Below are positions 1,776 to 10,387 of a stretch of 64,000 nt of DNA, piece after piece. Source of the stretch: Salinisphaeraceae bacterium (lineage in GTDB: Bacteria > Pseudomonadota > Gammaproteobacteria > Nevskiales > Salinisphaeraceae); contig NYTH01000003.1 of the NCBI GenBank assembly GCA_002683405.1, positions 1 to 64,000 of the forward strand, in the 5' to 3' direction. The stretch's first letter is position 1. Each line of letters starts with the position of its first letter. Both the position numbers and the translations under genes were made by a program. The notes beneath the pieces were generated by a model, which was not told where the DNA came from, ran no database searches, and saw only the letters and a program-made list of their open reading frames with translations.

Positions 1776-3428
1776 ATGACAGGGATTCGTCATTCTCCGG
1801 ATCGGCCCAGGCGGTCCCCCCCGCTCCGGCCGCGCCGGCTGGCCTGCTGCCTGCTCTGGCTGGCGGCGTCGCCGGTGTTTGCCGCCCCCGCGCCCCCGCC
1901 GCCAGCCACCCCGCTGGAGCAGGCCGACTATGCGGCGCTGCCCGACAACGAAGCCGTGCTGGCCTATCTCGACCGGCTGGCCAGCGCCTACTCCAATGCG
2001 CGCCGCATCCAGCTCGGACAATCCGCGGACGGCCGCCCCATCGGCGGGCTTCTTGTGTCCGGCAATCCCGATTTTCTCGAGACCGCTGCCTTCCGCTCGG
2101 GCATGGAGAACCCCCGGCTGCGGGCCATGCTGGTGGCCGGACAGCATGGTGACGAAACCGCGACCACCGAGGCGCTGCAGGTGATTGCGCGCGAACTGCT
2201 CGTCGGCGATCTGGCCGATCTGCCCGACAGCATGGACCTCATCCTCGTGCCGGCCGCCAGCCCTGATGGCCGCGATCTGCGGCGACGCACGAACGGTGCC
2301 GGCGAGAACGTCAACACCGACTACATCCTGCTCACCCAGCCCGAGAGCCAGGCGTTGTCGGCGGCGCTCACCCGATTCCGGCCGGATACGGTCATGGATA
2401 TCCATGAGTCCAGCGCCTACAAGGAAGACACGCTGGCCCGCCAGGGCTATGTGACTTTCTTCGATATCCAGTACGAGGTGGGTTTCGAGCCGAACATTGA
2501 TCGTCGGCTGCGCCGTTATGGTGTCGACGTGTTCCTGCCTGCGCTGATCCAGCGGGCCGCCGCGCGCAAGCTCAACGCGCGGCGCTATATTCTGGAAATC
2601 CGGGACGTCAACGAGCCCGTGACCCACGGCGGCATCACCCTGCGGAATTTTCGGAACTATTCAGGCTCGTCCAACGCGCTCTCCACGCTGGTGGAGGGCC
2701 GGATCGACCCGCCCGGCGACTACCCCACGCCGGACAATATCCGGGAGCGCACCGAGGAACTGGCCGGCGCGATTGCCGCCTACCTGCGCCAGGTGCACGC
2801 CATGCGCGAGCCCATCAAGCAGCGGGTCCAGGCCGCCCGCGAGCAGTGGCAGGGGCCGGTAGATGACGGCGGCCTGGCGCTGAAGTCCGAATTCGCGCTC
2901 GACCCTGAGCAGCCGCGTATACGCATTCCGCTACGTGAGATCGACAGCGGGGCCGTCATCGAAAAGCCCTTCGATTACCACGGCCGCGTGGTCACGCTGG
3001 AAACCTTCCGGCCGCCGGCCGGCTATCTGGTGACCGCGCATCAGGACCGCGTCGCCGAGCTGTTGAAACGCCATGGCGTAATCGTGGATCGGCTTGACCA
3101 GCCGGTGGCCCTGCCGGGACGGCGCAGAACCATACGGAACCTGGAAGTCACGCCGCCGCCGCCCGAACGCCGGCGCTACACGCTGGCGCTGCAGGTCGAC
3201 AGCGAGCCGGCGACGGTCACAGGCGCGCCGGGCGATCTGTTCATCGACCTGGCCCAGCCCGATGGCCGGCGCGTGCCGCTGCTGCTCGAGCCGCTATCCA
3301 CCACCAGCATCTACCAGGAGCCCGGCTACACGGAGATGCTCGAAACCGACCCGTTCTACCTGGTGCCCGTTGACCGGGCCCCGGCGGATCAGAAGGGCAG
3401 CGCAGAGGGCGTCTTGCCGGCGCAGTAG
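1776..3428 (+). CDS. Secreted M14-family zinc carboxypeptidase-like protein
   Basis: A 550-residue exported protein. The chosen start puts an arginine-rich n-region and a hydrophobic core (CCLLWLAASPVFA, cleavage near residue 37) at the N-terminus; an in-frame ATG at 1689 would add 29 residues ahead of the signal. Zinc ligands of the M14 fold are visible: HGDE (His124, Glu127) and the later MDIHES (His210). SPDG followed by RRRTNGAGENVNTDY corresponds to the substrate-carboxylate region of M14 enzymes. The C-terminal 200 or so residues look like a beta-rich accessory domain that I cannot name. Likely a periplasmic peptidase or amidase. The 3' end overlaps the convergent lipoprotein gene by 40 bases. 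Confidence 0.82.
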   Translation: MTGIRHSPDRPRRSPPLRPRRLACCLLWLAASPVFAAPAPPPPATPLEQADYAALPDNEAVLAYLDRLASAYSNARRIQLGQSADGRPIGGLLVSGNPDFLETAAFRSGMENPRLRAMLVAGQHGDETATTEALQVIARELLVGDLADLPDSMDLILVPAASPDGRDLRRRTNGAGENVNTDYILLTQPESQALSAALTRFRPDTVMDIHESSAYKEDTLARQGYVTFFDIQYEVGFEPNIDRRLRRYGVDVFLPALIQRAAARKLNARRYILEIRDVNEPVTHGGITLRNFRNYSGSSNALSTLVEGRIDPPGDYPTPDNIRERTEELAGAIAAYLRQVHAMREPIKQRVQAAREQWQGPVDDGGLALKSEFALDPEQPRIRIPLREIDSGAVIEKPFDYHGRVVTLETFRPPAGYLVTAHQDRVAELLKRHGVIVDRLDQPVALPGRRRTIRNLEVTPPPPERRRYTLALQVDSEPATVTGAPGDLFIDLAQPDGRRVPLLLEPLSTTSIYQEPGYTEMLETDPFYLVPVDRAPADQKGSAEGVLPAQ

Positions 3429-3898
3429 GTCTCCGGTTCCACGAGGACCTGGGTGGGGTGGAAGTCTCCGCTGGCGGCGTCCTGTTTGAGCAGCCGCATG
3501 CTGCACACGCCGCTTTGCAGATCGACATTGTTCTCGAGCCGGTAGTTCACCCCCGCCTTCGGCGAAAAGACCCGCTGCGAGGTCAGACAGCCGCCCTCGC
3601 TGCTGGTCCACACCGTCTCCACGACGAGTTGCCCCGTGGCCGGGATAACGACGCTGCTCTCTCGCTGATCCACCGACACCTGCTGAATATCGCCCAGTTC
3701 GCGTGGCCGCTGGCGCCGGCAGATATCCATGCTGTGGTAGAGGATGGCGCTGCTGACGCCGTCCGCAACGCCCAGCCAGTTCTCGCCCAGCGCGTTGGAC
3801 GTATAGATCAGCCGCGCCTGCGGGATATGAGCGGGCGGCTGCTGATAGGTGGGCGCCCGCTGACAGCCGGCCAGCAGAAGGCAGATCAGGCAAGCCAT
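3389..3898 (-). CDS. Small lipoprotein of a two-member local family
   Basis: A 169-residue protein with a lipoprotein signal: MACLICLLLAGC, lipobox Cys12. I do not recognise the family. The body is beta-rich with several cysteines and resembles the lipoprotein encoded at 8232-8783. Both have a LIYTS/LLFTA segment after the linker, VxIPAxxxLxVxxxWxxxxxxC in the middle, then (K/R)AGxxYRLxNxxDxxxGxC. Paired cysteines at equivalent places suggest a shared disulfide fold. The start at 3898 is preferred because an upstream ATG at 3931 would add 11 residues ahead of the signal peptide. It is convergent with the M14 gene and overlaps its last 40 bases. Confidence 0.72.
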   Translation of the reverse strand: MACLICLLLAGCQRAPTYQQPPAHIPQARLIYTSNALGENWLGVADGVSSAILYHSMDICRRQRPRELGDIQQVSVDQRESSVVIPATGQLVVETVWTSSEGGCLTSQRVFSPKAGVNYRLENNVDLQSGVCSMRLLKQDAASGDFHPTQVLVEPETYCAGKTPSALPF

Positions 3899-4008
3899 GG
3901 TGGTGTGACGCGTGCGAACTCCTCCGGCCATGTTGCGTAATTATCGGTAGTGATGGCGCACCGGTCGATTTGTAGCATGCCGCGCTTTTCCGAACAGGCA
4001 AGCAAGGC

Positions 4009-5499
4009 ATGGCCAAGGACAGATTCGATGATCCCGGCACGGCAGACGCGCGAACGCTGCTGGACGGCATGGCCCGGGACAAATGGGACGCCGTGGAGAT
4101 TACCGAGGCGCATCTGGACCGCATTGACCGGTATAACGAGGCGGTCAACGCCTACTGCCACGTGGATCATTCGGGCGCCCGCCGGGCGGCCGAGGAGTCG
4201 GCCCGCCGCTGGGCGAAGGGCCGGCCGCTCAGTCAGGCCGACGGGCTGCCCGTATCGCTGAAGGATCTGACCGAGGTCCGCGGCATGCCCACGCGGGCAG
4301 GTTCGCTGACATCCGGCATCGAACCCGCCACCGAGGATTCTCCCCCCGCCGCCCGGCTGCGCGAGGCGGGCGCCGTGCCGCTGGGCAAGACCAACACGCC
4401 GGAATTCGGCTGGAAAGCGACCACGGACAACCGCGTTTTCGGCTGCACCTACAATCCCTGGCATACGGGCATGACGTCCGGCGGCTCATCCGGTGGCGCG
4501 GCCGCGGCGGCGGCCCTGAACCTGGGCGTGCTGCATCAAGGCGGTGATTCGGGCGGCTCGATTCGCATTCCGGCCGCCTTCTGCGGCGTGTTCGGTTTCA
4601 AGCCGACCTTCGGCTGGACCCCGCAGTGGCCGCCGAGCAAGATGCCGACGCTGTCGCACATCGGCCCGATCACGCGCACCGTCTGGGATGCCTCGCTCAT
4701 GCTCAACATGATCGGCCGCTACGATTACCGCGACCCCTATGCCACCCGGGGCCAGCCCGACGACTGGAGCAACTGTCTGGGCGACGGGATCAGCGGACTG
4801 CAGATCGCCTACGCGCGCGATTGGGAGGGCCGCGAGCCGTCAGCGGATGTTCGCCGGGCGATCGATGAAGCGGCCGACACGCTGTCCAATCTGGGCGCCG
4901 ATATCGTGGAGGTCGATCCCGTGTTTGCCGACCCCTGCGAAGCCTTCCGCGAGATCTGGGACACCTGCTCGCGACAACTCGTGCTCGAGATGGACGAGTC
5001 GCAGCGCAAGCAGCTCGATCCGGGACTACTCGAGGAATCCCGCGAGGCGGAGTCTCTCCTGGCCACGGATTTCTTCGATGCCTATCTCACCGGCCAGCGC
5101 CTGGTCGCCACGCTGGAGGGCTTTTTCCAGCAGTACGACCTGCTGCTCACGCCGACCGTCCCCCGCGAGGCTTTCGCGGCCGGACACGACACCCCGCCCG
5201 GCGAAGACTTTAAGGACTGGATTGCGTGGACGCCCTACAGCTACCCCTTCAATCTCACCGGCCAGCCCGCGGCGTCCGTGCCCTGCGGTTTCAGCGACAG
5301 CGGCCTGCCGGTGGGGCTGCAGCTTGCGGGCGGCAAGTTCGACGACAACAAGGTGCTGCGCGCCTGCCACGCCTATCTCGAAGAGAAACCCGCCACCGTC
5401 ATCAACGAACCCCGCCTGCCGGAGCGCAAGTCCGACCGAAAGGCCGGCGGCAGCCGACAGGGCAATTCTAAGGGCACGTCAAAAGGAAAGTCGAAATGA
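4009..5499 (+). CDS. Amidase signature family enzyme
   Basis: A 496-residue amidase signature hydrolase. The Ser-cisSer-Lys triad is visible: Lys85 in PVSLKDLTE, Ser160 in SGGSSGG and Ser184 in GGDSGGSIRIPA, with the 24-residue Ser-Ser spacing typical of the family. It should hydrolyse an amide to acid plus ammonia; the substrate is unknown. GatA is unlikely because no gatB or gatC is present. The last 25 residues are an unusual Lys/Ser/Gly-rich tail. The stop codon overlaps the start of the ectC-like gene by 4 bases (ATGA), so the two are almost certainly co-translated, which suggests linked substrates. Confidence 0.9.
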   Translation: MAKDRFDDPGTADARTLLDGMARDKWDAVEITEAHLDRIDRYNEAVNAYCHVDHSGARRAAEESARRWAKGRPLSQADGLPVSLKDLTEVRGMPTRAGSLTSGIEPATEDSPPAARLREAGAVPLGKTNTPEFGWKATTDNRVFGCTYNPWHTGMTSGGSSGGAAAAAALNLGVLHQGGDSGGSIRIPAAFCGVFGFKPTFGWTPQWPPSKMPTLSHIGPITRTVWDASLMLNMIGRYDYRDPYATRGQPDDWSNCLGDGISGLQIAYARDWEGREPSADVRRAIDEAADTLSNLGADIVEVDPVFADPCEAFREIWDTCSRQLVLEMDESQRKQLDPGLLEESREAESLLATDFFDAYLTGQRLVATLEGFFQQYDLLLTPTVPREAFAAGHDTPPGEDFKDWIAWTPYSYPFNLTGQPAASVPCGFSDSGLPVGLQLAGGKFDDNKVLRACHAYLEEKPATVINEPRLPERKSDRKAGGSRQGNSKGTSKGKSK

Positions 5500-5906
5500 T
5501 CGTAACCAGCCTCGAAGACATTCAGCAGAGCCGCGACGAAGTCGACAACGGCGACTTTCTCTCCCGCCGCATGATTCTGTCGAAGGACGGCATGGGCTAC
5601 TCCGTGCACGAGACGCACATCCCGCCCAATCAGGCGCTGCGCATGTGGTACAAGCATCACCTGGAAACCGTTTTCTGCCTCGACGGCGCCGGCGAGGTAG
5701 AGGACCTGGGTGAAGGGCAGACGCACAGGCTCGAGCCGGGCGTGCTGTACGCGCTGAATCGCCACGACCATCACGTGCTGCGCAGCTTTGACGACGGGCT
5801 GCGTCTGTTCTGCATCTTCAACCCGCCGCTGGTCGGTGACGAAACCCACCAGGCCGACGGGTCCTACGCGCTGCTGGACGAAGCCGGCGAAGTCGTTCGG
5901 GACTGA
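5496..5906 (+). CDS. ectC: Ectoine synthase-like cupin (EctC), solitary
   Basis: A 136-residue cupin with clear EctC character: HHLETVFCLDGAGEVEDL, LEPGVLYALNRHDHH and a late GDETHQADGSYALLDE. Counting from the start, Glu57, Tyr85 and His93 fall at the positions reported as the iron ligands of Paenibacillus lautus EctC. EctC normally cyclises N-gamma-acetyl-2,4-diaminobutyrate to ectoine. Here ectA, ectB and ectD are absent from the neighbourhood, and the partner gene is an amidase overlapping by 4 bases. Solitary EctC proteins are known and some act on salvaged precursor; EctC can also form the cyclic glutamine product ADPC in vitro. The true substrate is therefore open. Confidence 0.88.
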   Translation: MIVTSLEDIQQSRDEVDNGDFLSRRMILSKDGMGYSVHETHIPPNQALRMWYKHHLETVFCLDGAGEVEDLGEGQTHRLEPGVLYALNRHDHHVLRSFDDGLRLFCIFNPPLVGDETHQADGSYALLDEAGEVVRD

Positions 5907-6046: not shown

Positions 6047-7834
6047 ATGTCCGACTTCAAGACCCCCCTGCGCGACATGCAGTTCGTGCTGCATGAAATG
6101 CTCAACGCCGAGCAGGTGCTCTCGGCCCTGCCGTCCATGGAGGCGGTGGATGCCGCCATCATCGATCAGGTGCTGGATGAATCCGGCAAGTTCATGGGCT
6201 CGGTACTCGCGCCGCTGAACGCGGTGGGCGATGAGCAAGGCTGCACGCTCAACGACGACCGGAGCGTGACCACGCCGGACGGATTCGCGGACGCCTACCG
6301 GCAGTTCGTCGAGGCGGGCTGGTCGTCCCTGTCGGCCGACCCGGCGTTCGGGGGGCAGGGGTTGCCCGCCTGCGTGCAGATTCCCGTGAACGAGATGATG
6401 TTCGCCTGCAACCAGGCCTGGGGCATGTTCGTGGGTCTCTCGCAGGGCGCCTACAAGTGTCTGCACACCTTCGGCACGCCCGAGCAGAAGCAGACCTACC
6501 TGACCAAGCTGGGTGCGGGAGAGTGGACCGGCACCATGTGCCTGACCGAACCGCAGGCCGGTACCGATCTCGGCTTGCTGCGCAGCAAGGCGGAGCCGCA
6601 GGGCGACGGCGCCTACCGCCTGACCGGCCAGAAGATTTTCATATCGGCCGGCGAGCACGACCTGGCCGACAATATCGTGCACCTGGTGCTCGCCCGCCTG
6701 CCGGACGCACCGGCCGGCACCCGCGGCATTTCGCTGTTCGTCGTGCCCAAGTTTCTGCCCGACGAAAACGGCGAAGCCGGCGAGCGCAACGCGATCTACT
6801 GCAGCGGTCTGGAAGAGAAGATGGGCATCCACGGCAGCCCCACCTGCCAGATCTCGCTCGAGGGCGCGACCGGCTGGCTGGTGGGCGAGCCCAACAAGGG
6901 GCTGCCGGCCATGTTCGTCATGATGAACGAGGCGCGCCTGGGCGTGGGGCTGGAAGCGCAGGGCCTGTCGGTCGGCGCCTACCAGAAGGCCGTGGCCTAT
7001 GCCAAGGATCGTATCCAGGGCAAGTCGCCGGTCGTGCCGCGTGACAAGGACCGGCCGGCCGATCCGATCATCCAGCATCCGGACGTGCGGCGCATGCTGC
7101 TCACCCAGAAGGCCTACATCGAAGGCCAGCGCGCCATGGCCTACTGGACCGCGCTGCTGGTTGACGAGGCCGAGCATCACCCGGACGCCGAGCACCGCAA
7201 GCAGGCGCACGCGCTGGTGGAGCTGCTCACGCCCGTGGTCAAGGCCTTTCTCACGGACAACGCGCTGATCTGCACCAACCTCGCCATCCAGTGTCTGGGC
7301 GGCTACGGCTATATTCGCGAATACGGCGTGGAGCAGTATTTTCGCGACGCCCGCATCAAGCCGATCTATGAAGGCACCAACGGCATCCAGGCCATGGACC
7401 TGCTGGGCCGCAAGGTGCTCATGGACGGCGGTGAGCGCCTGCAGCTGCTCAGCCGGCACATCGAGCAGGATATTGCCGCGGCGAGTCAGACCCATCCCGA
7501 CAAGGCCCGCGCGGTGGGCGAGCTGCTCGAGCAGACCGGCGAGTTCACCCGCTGGATCGGCGGACAGGTGCAGGACAGCCCGGCCGAGGCACCCGCTGCG
7601 GCGGTGGACTATCTGCGCGCCATGGCGCATCTGATCGTCTCCAGCCTCTGGCTGCGGGCCGCGCACATCGCCACGACTCGTCTGGAGGCCGGGGATGACC
7701 GGGCCTTCTACCAGTCGAAGCTGGACACGGCCGACTTCTACTTCGCCCGGCTGCTGCCCGAGGCGCACTATCACCTGCAGGCCGGCCGGGCCGGCGCAGC
7801 CAGCCTGATGAGCCTGGCCGAGGAGGCCTTCTAG
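6047..7834 (+). CDS. Acyl-CoA dehydrogenase, long form (DmdC-like)
   Basis: A 595-residue flavoprotein with the acyl-CoA dehydrogenase fold plus the extra C-terminal domain of about 130 residues seen in 3-methylmercaptopropionyl-CoA dehydrogenase (DmdC) and related long-form enzymes. Visible features are the N-terminal VLAPLNAVGDEQGC segment, the flavin-binding CLTEPQAGTDLG, the C-terminal QCLGGYGYIREY and the catalytic Glu in PIYEGTNGIQ. It oxidises an acyl-CoA at the 2,3 position, passing electrons to ETF. DmdC itself is only one option, because many long-form members act on ordinary fatty acyl-CoAs. A MAPEG-family gene follows after 3 bases, so they form an operon. Confidence 0.9.
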   Translation: MSDFKTPLRDMQFVLHEMLNAEQVLSALPSMEAVDAAIIDQVLDESGKFMGSVLAPLNAVGDEQGCTLNDDRSVTTPDGFADAYRQFVEAGWSSLSADPAFGGQGLPACVQIPVNEMMFACNQAWGMFVGLSQGAYKCLHTFGTPEQKQTYLTKLGAGEWTGTMCLTEPQAGTDLGLLRSKAEPQGDGAYRLTGQKIFISAGEHDLADNIVHLVLARLPDAPAGTRGISLFVVPKFLPDENGEAGERNAIYCSGLEEKMGIHGSPTCQISLEGATGWLVGEPNKGLPAMFVMMNEARLGVGLEAQGLSVGAYQKAVAYAKDRIQGKSPVVPRDKDRPADPIIQHPDVRRMLLTQKAYIEGQRAMAYWTALLVDEAEHHPDAEHRKQAHALVELLTPVVKAFLTDNALICTNLAIQCLGGYGYIREYGVEQYFRDARIKPIYEGTNGIQAMDLLGRKVLMDGGERLQLLSRHIEQDIAAASQTHPDKARAVGELLEQTGEFTRWIGGQVQDSPAEAPAAAVDYLRAMAHLIVSSLWLRAAHIATTRLEAGDDRAFYQSKLDTADFYFARLLPEAHYHLQAGRAGAASLMSLAEEAF

Positions 7835-7837
7835 ACG

Positions 7838-8227
7838 ATGGTTGAAGTCACCGGCCTCTACACGGCGCTGTGCGCGCTGCTGGTGCTCTACCTGGCCTGG
7901 CGCGTGGTGAGTATCCGCCGCCGGGAAAAGATCGGGCTGGGCGATGGCGGCAACAAGGACCTGAATCTGGCCATTCGGGCCCACGCCAACGCCGTGGAAT
8001 ACCTGCCGCTATCGCTGCTGCTGATCCTGGTGGCCGAACTCAACGGCCTGCCGGCGCTGTGGCTGCATCTGGCGGGGTTAGCGCTGCTGGCCTGCCGCGT
8101 CGGCCACGCCTGGGGCTTTGTTGCCGCGCGGGGCGCCTATCATCCCGGCCGGTTTTTCGGCATTGCCGGCAACTGGCTGCTGTGGATCGCGCTGGCGCTG
8201 GCAAACGGGCTGCTCGCGCTGGGCTGA
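7838..8227 (+). CDS. MAPEG family membrane protein
   Basis: A 129-residue protein with four hydrophobic segments and the MAPEG signature RAHANAVEYLPLSLLLI at about residues 45-61. MAPEG proteins include microsomal glutathione transferases; the bacterial members are often uncharacterised and may conjugate or reduce lipid peroxides using glutathione. It starts 3 bases after the acyl-CoA dehydrogenase stop and is probably co-transcribed with it. It converges with the lipoprotein gene at 8232, leaving only 4 bases between stops. Confidence 0.87.
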   Translation: MVEVTGLYTALCALLVLYLAWRVVSIRRREKIGLGDGGNKDLNLAIRAHANAVEYLPLSLLLILVAELNGLPALWLHLAGLALLACRVGHAWGFVAARGAYHPGRFFGIAGNWLLWIALALANGLLALG

Positions 8228-8231
8228 GCCG

Positions 8232-8783
8232 TCACGGCGTGAGGGCCGTCGCGCCAACGCCGGCCCGGCAGGCGGCGGGTAGCGGCGTCAGTCCTTGCGT
8301 CTGGACAAAGCGCCGCGAACGGGTCTGCTGCATTTCCAGGGTGAGCCAGCAGGTGCCGCGCAGTTCGTCCTGGCGGTTGACCAGCCGATACACCGCCCCG
8401 GCGCGCGGCCGGAAACCCACGTTTGTCACCGAGCACAGACTGTCCGCACCGGACCAGAGGCTGTCCACGATCAGCATGCGGTTGGCGGGTATCGTGACCC
8501 GGGCAATGCGCTGCCGGGCCGACACCTGCGTGGCCGGCCCGTACTTGACCGGCGCTCGGCTGCAGCGTGCATCGCTGGCCACGCTCAGCGCGAGTGTGCC
8601 CACGCCCACCGGTTGCCCGCTGTAGCCGGTTTTCAGGTCGCTCGCGGTAAACAGCAGCGTGGCCTGATCCGCGCGGGCCAGCGAGGACTCCCCGTCCGGG
8701 GCCGGCGCCACGCCGCTACAGGCTGACAGCCCTGCCAGCAGGGCCGGGACCAGCGCCTGACAGGTCTGTGTGAACGCTTTCAT
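8232..8783 (-). CDS. Small lipoprotein, paralogue of the 3.4-3.9 kb lipoprotein
   Basis: A 183-residue protein with a lipoprotein signal (MKAFTQTCQALVPALLAGLSAC, lipobox Cys22). The ATG at 8783 is chosen over one at 8807 because it places the signal peptide at the N-terminus. No named family is recognised. It aligns by eye with the other local lipoprotein: LLFTASDL against LIYTSNAL, RVTIPANRMLIVDSLWSG against SVVIPATGQLVVETVWTS, and RAGAVYRLVNRQDELRGTC against KAGVNYRLENNVDLQSGVC. The conserved cysteines suggest a common disulfide fold in the periplasm. It stands alone, convergent with the MAPEG gene. Confidence 0.75.
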   Translation of the reverse strand: MKAFTQTCQALVPALLAGLSACSGVAPAPDGESSLARADQATLLFTASDLKTGYSGQPVGVGTLALSVASDARCSRAPVKYGPATQVSARQRIARVTIPANRMLIVDSLWSGADSLCSVTNVGFRPRAGAVYRLVNRQDELRGTCWLTLEMQQTRSRRFVQTQGLTPLPAACRAGVGATALTP

Positions 8784-8982
8784 CTGATACTCCGGGACGC
8801 TGCGCATGGTTCGCCGGGTTGCGTCCCAATTGCCTGTTCAGATTAAATATTTTCCTTCGAATAATCCACCGGCCAGCAGCCCGGCACGGCGGTTGCCGGA
8901 TTATGCGGAGCGTGGATTGCAGTCCGACGAAGCCCCGCGCGCGGGTTGCGAACGCGAATCAGACCGGAGTGAGGCGGGGGCG

Positions 8983-9486
8983 TCAGAGCTGTTCGAGCCG
9001 GGCCAGTTTGGGCTGGATATAGCGCCGGCAGAAAGGCCGGTCCGGGCCGCGCCGGTAGTAGTTACGGTAGCGCTCGGGCAAACGTCGCAGCCCGGTCAGC
9101 GGCAAAACCAGCACGCGCAGGGGCAGCGGAAATTCGGGCTGCAGCAGCGACAAAGCCTTGTCCAGCGAGGGCTTCTGGCCGGCCCGGGCGTAGTAGACCG
9201 CCGATCGGTAGCGGGTCCGCAGCGCATGGTCTGACGTGCTGGCATGCGTGTGACAGTGGGCTCGCAGCAGCGTCAGCACGTCGGTACGGCTGGGGTCGAA
9301 GGTCACCCGCACCGCCTCGCTGGGCCTGTGGTGCGGCGGCTGCGACCAGATATGGCCCTGCTCGACGGCGAGCACGCCCGTGAGCTGCTGGAAGACGGCT
9401 TCGGTACACCAGTGGCAGCCGCCGCCAAAACCCAGCACGGCGCGGCCGGACGGCTCGGCCTCGCGATGCGGTGAGTTACCGCGCAC
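8983..9486 (-). CDS. msrA: Peptide-methionine (S)-S-oxide reductase-like protein
   Basis: A 167-residue protein with the MsrA active-site motif as GFGGGCHWCTEAVFQQL (canonical GCFWCTE, here His replaces the usual Phe) and the family segment HASTSDHALRTRYRSAVYY. It should reduce methionine-S-sulfoxide using a catalytic Cys. The start is taken as the GTG at 9486, which overlaps the hydrolase stop by 11 bases; no in-frame ATG gives a sensible N-terminus. The region after the YRS motif is divergent, and the usual ExYHQ-type segment is replaced by PERYRNYYRRG, so this is a variant member. It is the last gene of the monooxygenase-hydrolase operon. Confidence 0.75.
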   Translation of the reverse strand: MRGNSPHREAEPSGRAVLGFGGGCHWCTEAVFQQLTGVLAVEQGHIWSQPPHHRPSEAVRVTFDPSRTDVLTLLRAHCHTHASTSDHALRTRYRSAVYYARAGQKPSLDKALSLLQPEFPLPLRVLVLPLTGLRRLPERYRNYYRRGPDRPFCRRYIQPKLARLEQL

Positions 9487-10387
9487 CCAGATGCCGGTCG
9501 AAGAAGGCCAGTTGATCGGCGATGGCGCGATCCCGCGCCGCACCCACGTAGATGTCGAAATGGCCGATATCGTAGCGCTTGAGCGTGACCTGCGGGCCGG
9601 CCTTGCGCGCCAGCCGGTCGGCCGCCGCCGCCGGCGCGACGGAATCGCCCGTACAGGCCAGGATAAGCGCGGGGCATTTGAGTTGACCGGCCCGGGCAAC
9701 CGGCCGATAGAGCGGCAGGTACAGCGTCATGCGGGCCGTCATTTTGTTGCGCCAGTCGGCCGGCGTGATGGCGCCGTAGCCGGCCTGGGCATCGGGGCTG
9801 CTCATGGCGGCAAACTCGCCGGGCGGCGCCGTGACCGGCACGGTGACCGGGTCGCGCCCGAGCCAGGCGCGGACCTGGTCGGCCGCCCCGTAGGCGCTGA
9901 TCCTGAGCAGCTGCCCCAGGCCGGCATACCGCATGATATTGAGCGCCGCGGACAGCCCGTCGAGCATGGGGCCCTGCGCGCTGATGGCCGCGATACGCGG
10001 GTCACGCGCGGCGGTCGTGACCACGTGCCCGCCCGAAAACGAGGTGCCCCAGAGGCCGATGCGCGCCTCGTCAACGCCCGGCAGCGCGCGACAGAAGGCC
10101 ACGGCGGCCTGCCAGTCCTGCAGCTGCTTGCCGATGCTCAGCAGTTGACGCGGCTCGCCGTCGCTGGCGCCGAAATGGCGATAGTCGAACAGCACGACGA
10201 TGTAGCCGCCGAGGGCAAACGCTTCGGCAAAGGGCTCCAGCCCGGCATCGCGCGTGCCGGCCAGCCCGTGGGCCATGACCAGGGCGGCGCCGTTGGACTC
10301 TGCCGGCTCGTACACCCACGCCCGGCAGGTCACGCCCTGGCTGTCGAACTGCGCATCGCGTCGGGTAAAGGTCGGAGTGTCTGCCAT
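9476..10387 (-). CDS. Alpha/beta hydrolase
   Basis: A 303-residue alpha/beta hydrolase. The nucleophile elbow is GTSFSGG (about residue 118), with an acid at CTGDSVAP and a histidine at DIGHFDIY. HGLAGTRD near residue 35 is the oxyanion HG motif. It resembles the X-Pro dipeptidyl-peptidase/S15-like esterases common in bacterial catabolic clusters. It is downstream of the Baeyer-Villiger-type monooxygenase by 53 bases on the same strand, so hydrolysing the ester or lactone produced by that enzyme is a plausible role. That is inference from context. Confidence 0.85.
   Translation of the reverse strand: MADTPTFTRRDAQFDSQGVTCRAWVYEPAESNGAALVMAHGLAGTRDAGLEPFAEAFALGGYIVVLFDYRHFGASDGEPRQLLSIGKQLQDWQAAVAFCRALPGVDEARIGLWGTSFSGGHVVTTAARDPRIAAISAQGPMLDGLSAALNIMRYAGLGQLLRISAYGAADQVRAWLGRDPVTVPVTAPPGEFAAMSSPDAQAGYGAITPADWRNKMTARMTLYLPLYRPVARAGQLKCPALILACTGDSVAPAAAADRLARKAGPQVTLKRYDIGHFDIYVGAARDRAIADQLAFFDRHLGAR

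Follow-up and report, generated by a model that had tools for sequence, protein, structure and literature searches.

A gene for an ectoine synthase-like cupin (EctC) was found to be paired with a gene for an amidase-signature protein in the window, which is the whole stretch of 64,000 nucleotides of Salinisphaeraceae DNA analysed here, and the adjacency of these two kinds of gene is far beyond chance. The amidase-EctC partnership has formed at least two times, with different amidase families. Judging from the sequences, its recurrence in distantly related carriers of ectoine genes suggests that the two enzymes share a job, most likely the breakdown of ectoine or a close relative. Orphan EctCs account for 145 of 582 EctC-type proteins and their function has been called unresolved (PMC5924519; also PMC6344544); a conserved partner drawn from two amidase families makes their role directly testable. 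No report of an amidase partnership of EctC was found in the open-licence literature searched, and an earlier report elsewhere is possible.

Structure of the gene pair

The upstream gene (4009-5499, forward strand) encodes a 496-residue amidase-signature protein of the PRK06169 type with a Lys/Ser-rich C-terminal tail. The protein matches the Pfam profile PF01425 with 334 bits and the NCBIfam model NF004815 (PRK06169) with 582 bits, above the curated cut-off of 506. The motifs PVSLKD, GGSSGG and GGDSGGSIR were found at residues 81, 158 and 178 respectively, and by the motif spacing of S. aureus GatA the expected Ser-cisSer-Lys triad (Lys85-Ser160-Ser184) is intact. The NCBIfam description of PRK06169 reads only 'amidase' and makes no link to EctC.

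The downstream gene (5496-5906, forward strand) encodes the EctC-like cupin of 136 residues. Its start overlaps the stop of the amidase gene by four bases, as the original prediction had claimed, in an ATGA at 5496-5499 (forward strand). A putative Shine-Dalgarno sequence, AAGGAAAG (5483-5490, forward strand), lies just 5' of the ectC ATG and within the amidase coding region. The ATGA overlap, read from the DNA letters, is consistent with translational coupling of the amidase and EctC. An identical four-base ATGA overlap was observed in the pair of Rhizobium sp. WYJ-E13, which is described below. Two similar small lipoprotein-like proteins of unassigned family flank the region (3389-3898 and 8232-8807, both on the reverse strand).

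The EctC-like protein matches PF06339 with 167.9 bits (cut-off 27) and NF009806 with 165.4 bits (cut-off 128), and its closest solved relatives are the ectoine synthases of P. lautus (5ONM, 5ONN and 5ONO) and S. alaskensis (5BXX). The top five fold matches of its AlphaFold model (pLDDT 79.5) are all EctC (Z 12.9-14.0, 2.5-2.7 Å over 108-114 residues), with unrelated cupins reaching up to Z 12.7 and hence no sharp separation. The metal ligands Glu57, Tyr85 and His93, whose retention had also been claimed, were confirmed by alignment and correspond to Glu57, Tyr84 and His92 of P. lautus EctC. Ser23, Arg25, Thr40, Tyr52, the active-site-proximal cysteine and Phe106 (P. lautus numbering) are all kept as well. 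Apart from Trp21, the ligand-contacting residues agree with those of the canonical EctCs compared; position 21 is Phe in the window protein and in 26 of the 33 members of its clade, whereas it is Trp in all 48 canonical EctCs. A Trp21Ala variant of EctC retains 9.7% activity (PMC6344544). Position 38 is His, likewise found in 44 of the 48 canonical proteins, and a change from Asn38 to His was rejected as a special feature because His is the rule among the canonical EctCs compared.

The window protein resembles the canonical EctC of EctABC in its cupin fold, its Pfam and NCBIfam family, its iron ligands and most ligand-contacting residues, but apart from Phe21 it differs in lying outside any ect operon, in having an amidase partner and in belonging to an orphan clade that is separate from the 48 canonical EctCs (support 100/97). 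It forms the deepest branch of this clade, with the exact tree places of both window proteins unsure because of their long branches. The orphan clade holds all of the EctCs linked to PRK06169-type amidases, together with orphans that lie beside genes for FMN glutamate-synthase-like or thiamine-diphosphate enzymes. Clade members beside a stand-alone FMN glutamate-synthase-like gene and/or a PRK08273 thiamine-diphosphate enzyme gene, rather than an amidase gene, were observed at nine loci (L053, L173, L174, L178, L181, L192, L139, L141 and L134).

Conservation and recurrence of the pair

An alignment of the orphan EctC group was scanned against a collection of 84,980 species and 80 loci were returned. 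Twenty of these loci, from 20 named genomes besides that of the window, carry a gene for an amidase of the window's family upstream of EctC on the same strand, with 18 of the pairs directly adjacent and two having one gene in between. In the 18 direct pairs, 17 to 135 bases separate the two genes and the amidases are 57-64% identical to the S. hydrothermalis query amidase; the other two loci are from Salinisphaera, with a decarboxylase-like gene in between, and one of them is the source of that query. The pair is spread over eight genera (Modicisalibacter, Halomonas, Alloalcanivorax, Salinisphaera, Henriciella, Roseivivax, Tranquillimonas and Carideicomes), six families (Halomonadaceae, Alcanivoracaceae, Salinisphaeraceae, Hyphomonadaceae, Roseobacteraceae and Paracoccaceae) and two classes, the alpha- and gammaproteobacteria. 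Flanking genes are common only to related genera and none is shared by distant ones, so that what is conserved is the pair as such, and the amidase link that the original prediction had put up for checking proves to be real. None of the canonical ectABC loci of the same scan has a PRK06169-type amidase beside EctC.

For 21 pairs, the distances among the amidases correlate with those among the EctCs (Mantel r 0.71, p 0.0001), and r is 0.61 when the window and Salinisphaera are left out. Among 369 gammaproteobacterial genomes, EctC was found in 10 of the 11 that have a close homolog of the amidase against 50 of the 369 overall (hypergeometric 9e-9, a value that ignores kinship). A single exclusive clade of EctC-linked amidases was rejected (AU p 0.0002), as non-adjacent Salinisphaera amidases nest inside it. 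Most Salinisphaera genomes with a non-adjacent amidase carry an orphan EctC at another locus, and it is plausible that a former pair has since separated there. Three Salinisphaera-type genomes show the order amidase, phosphatidylserine-decarboxylase-like gene and EctC on one strand; the middle gene belongs to PF02666 (L046:6437-7633, reverse; L054:6838-8088, reverse; L056:5152-6399, forward) and a role of its product as a pyruvoyl amino-acid decarboxylase is conceivable.

A second amidase family, PRK07056-like and 27-35% identical to the window amidase, was found in a plasmid search directly upstream of orphan EctCs of other lineages. These pairs occur in Rhizobium sp. WYJ-E13, R. bangladeshense and Caballeronia zhejiangensis, and in Burkholderia multivorans as identified by tblastn. 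On the two Rhizobium plasmids, the pair is part of ehuBCDA-type operons for ectoine uptake, in which ehuBCDA is followed by amidase-ectC and accompanied by a divergent MocR-type, EhuR/EnuR-like regulator. The gene order is regulator-transporter-amidase-ectC in Caballeronia and transporter-amidase-ectC in B. multivorans. EhuB of R. bangladeshense scores 227 bits, above the equivalog cut-off of 190.9, and the best match of the two Rhizobium regulators is NF052286, the model of the ectoine-utilisation regulator EhuR/EnuR, with 367 and 421 bits, below its cut-off of 480. That two amidase families were recruited to EctC argues strongly for a common reaction path, and the position of the pair within an uptake operon points to the use or breakdown of an imported compound. 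A functional link between amidase and EctC is thus supported both by the conserved pair with its differing flanks and by the second amidase family in ectoine-uptake operons.

Ectoine genes in the genomes that carry the pair

The window belongs to contig C3 of a 3.72-Mb genome that is 99% complete and consists of 58 contigs. The original prediction held that no ectA, ectB or ectD lies nearby, which is true locally, as ectA and ectD have no match on contig C3 and neither ectA nor ectB was found beside the window ectC. It does not extend to the genome, where a complete ectABC and a BCCT transporter gene lie together on contig C36 (EctA 186, EctB 665 and EctC 178 bits, all above cut-off), ectAB there adjoining the other ectC, and where contigs C41 and C49 each carry a copy of ectD. 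Hence the window's protein is an additional paralog, with 44% identity to the canonical protein encoded in its own genome. The proposed bypass of missing ectAB is rejected by this complete ectABC, and such a bypass is likewise unsupported in the 20 named pair genomes, all of which have EctA above cut-off; the amidase link is conserved. Like the orphan EctCs described previously, the window protein lies away from ectAB, and a full ect cluster in the same genome was reported for 11 genomes (PMC5924519); an amidase is unmentioned there, whereas the subclade of the window protein has a conserved amidase partner.

EctD occurs in 16 of the 20 pair genomes and is absent from four at E 1e-40, which leaves a link to hydroxyectoine only unsupported. 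EutD was found in 15 of the 20 (E 1e-60) and EutE above cut-off in 11, and a simple replacement of EutD/EutE was rejected as a general rule. With EctA in all of these genomes and EutD or EutE in many, the pair belongs to ectoine producers and replaces neither synthesis nor, mostly, degradation. In Roseivivax-type genomes, EutD adjoins an M20 acetylornithine-deacetylase-like gene where EutE would be expected; this order was seen in Roseivivax halodurans, R. marinus and Carideicomes (L240-L242), the M20 assignment being by scan for L240.

Neither EutD (DoeA) nor EutE (DoeB) was found above cut-off in the window's genome, and neither window protein belongs to these families. Contig C49 encodes a divergent DoeA-like M24 protein that is 25% identical to Halomonas DoeA and far below cut-off. 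The same locus (L237) holds an SSADH-like aldehyde dehydrogenase (2668-4182, forward), the second EctD (6250-7164, reverse), the DoeA-like protein itself (7528-8697, forward) and an EutB-like dehydratase (8840-9679, forward), and may be what is left of a locus for hydroxyectoine use, or a variant of one.

Where no EctC is adjacent, some close homologs of the amidase adjoin SSADH-like aldehyde dehydrogenases, and at one such locus a diaminobutyrate transaminase of the EctB type (TIGR02407, 619 bits) lies between the amidase and the aldehyde dehydrogenase. The three genes are on the same strand (L076:4982-9068, reverse; genome G083) in a relative whose genome showed no orphan EctC of the clade. 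In the doe pathway, the later steps in the catabolism of diaminobutyrate are those of a transaminase and an aldehyde dehydrogenase (PMC3187862). Clusters with aldehyde and 2-hydroxyacid dehydrogenases at more distant gammaproteobacterial amidases were rejected as doe clusters, the scanned genes not being EutD/EutE.

Possible reactions of the pair

The pair is best read as a two-enzyme accessory module of ectoine producers whose substrate is ectoine or a near analogue and whose direction is probably breakdown, by ring opening followed by irreversible deacylation, and our confidence in this reading falls just short of even. In its favour count the conserved and repeated pairing, the correlated distances, the co-occurrence of close amidases with EctC in gammaproteobacteria, the constant company of EctA, the dehydrogenase and transaminase neighbours of some close amidase homologs, and the lack of EutD and EutE above cut-off in the window's genome. 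The EctC-like iron cupin would interconvert a linear N-acyl diamino acid and its cyclic amidine, either ectoine itself or a near analogue, and the amidase would hydrolyse the acyl-amide of the linear form. The coupled reaction would lead from ectoine through N-gamma-acetyl-diaminobutyrate to diaminobutyrate and acetate, and would run towards breakdown because the deacylation is irreversible. The diaminobutyrate could re-enter synthesis or be taken to aspartate by an EctB/DoeD-type transaminase and an aldehyde dehydrogenase.

The substrate, the direction and the physiological role (turnover or nutrient use) are what we infer here. Two considerations speak for the opening direction, namely that an amidase cutting N-acyl groups would destroy the substrate of cyclisation, whereas the two steps run in sequence when the ring is opened, and that the second kind of pair sits in uptake operons. 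The original prediction allowed for a route either to or from ectoine-like compounds, and this operon context favours their removal without proving it. The pair would then perform the same overall chemistry as DoeA and DoeB, ring opening followed by acetyl removal, although those two proteins, an M24-type hydrolase (DoeA) and an AstE/AspA-type deacetylase (DoeB), are homologous neither to the cupin nor to the amidase-signature enzyme. If breakdown is true, it would be a second chemistry for dismantling a salt protectant that is produced globally and used industrially.

A more specific proposal is that a paralog of ectoine synthase has been reversed into an ectoine hydrolase, pulled by the coupled deacetylating amidase, in a previously undescribed breakdown route; the pairing on which it rests arose at least two times. 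We make the proposal tentatively and judge that it is more probably wrong than right; if a reverse-EctC route is true, a large class of orphan EctCs would acquire a function. Several observations count against breakdown. Purified EctC of H. elongata is reported to show no detectable reverse reaction (PMC3187862), the equilibrium of canonical EctC is almost entirely in favour of ectoine (PMC6344544) and EnuR senses alpha-acetyl-diaminobutyrate and not the gamma isomer (PMC8739950). A second route would also be redundant where EutD (15 of the 20 genomes) and EutE (11 of the 20), or EutD and the M20 gene of Roseivivax-type genomes, are already present.

The unfavourable equilibrium, the absent reverse activity and this redundancy make a different cyclic amidine a serious rival, although we still consider it rather unlikely. 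EctC would close or open the ring of a non-ectoine compound (e.g., a glutamine-derived ring, a homolog or a hydroxylated form) and the amidase would handle the amide. A chemically related substrate has been proposed for orphan EctCs (PMC6344544), and the idea suits a clade that stands apart from every canonical EctC (100/97) with many clade-specific positions and with Phe21 in 26 of 33 members against none of 48, as well as the presence of standard synthesis, and often standard degradation, in the pair genomes. It fits less well with EctA in 20 of 20 pair genomes, with an EhuB above the equivalog cut-off in the operons of the Rhizobium pairs, and with ligand-contacting residues that, except Trp21, are as in the canonical EctCs compared.

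Metabolite repair, in which the amidase would clear mis-acetylated or spontaneously formed N-acetyl-diaminobutyrate and the spare EctC would re-close the usable isomer, is improbable. The strict company of EctA, alongside full synthesis and degradation pathways, would suit such a housekeeping accessory, but it leaves unexplained why pairs of Rhizobium and Burkholderia lie in uptake operons. Quite improbable, too, is the synthesis originally envisaged, in which the amidase would release the substrate of EctC from a bigger acyl-amide and ectoine would be made without EctAB. An orphan EctC of Pseudomonas syringae did restore ectoine in an H. elongata ectC mutant, and plant material supplied its substrate (reviewed in PMC5924519); the second-family pairs also adjoin importers in plant-associated genera. 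On the other hand, no bypass is needed with EctA in the window's genome and in all 20 pair genomes, and an N-acyl-cutting amidase would destroy the EctC substrate. Chance neighbours with no shared function are scarcely credible, for while some close amidases and clade EctCs are non-adjacent, e.g., in several Salinisphaera, the idea is already contradicted by conservation across two classes with different flanks, by correlated divergence and by the second independent pairing.

EctC domains were also observed in another setting in Salinisphaeraceae, as EctC/ATP-grasp fusions of about 560 residues (L058:3139-4842, reverse; L059:3553-5235, reverse; L060:3513-5198, reverse; L061:4928-6613, forward; L062:3532-5211, reverse). 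These fusions adjoin M20 and S15 hydrolases, and their EctC domain lacks the metal ligand His92 (replaced by Ile or Val) and Phe106. Orphan EctCs of rhizobial plasmids were likewise found close to genes whose annotation is ATP-grasp-type ligase (L228, L232 and L234).
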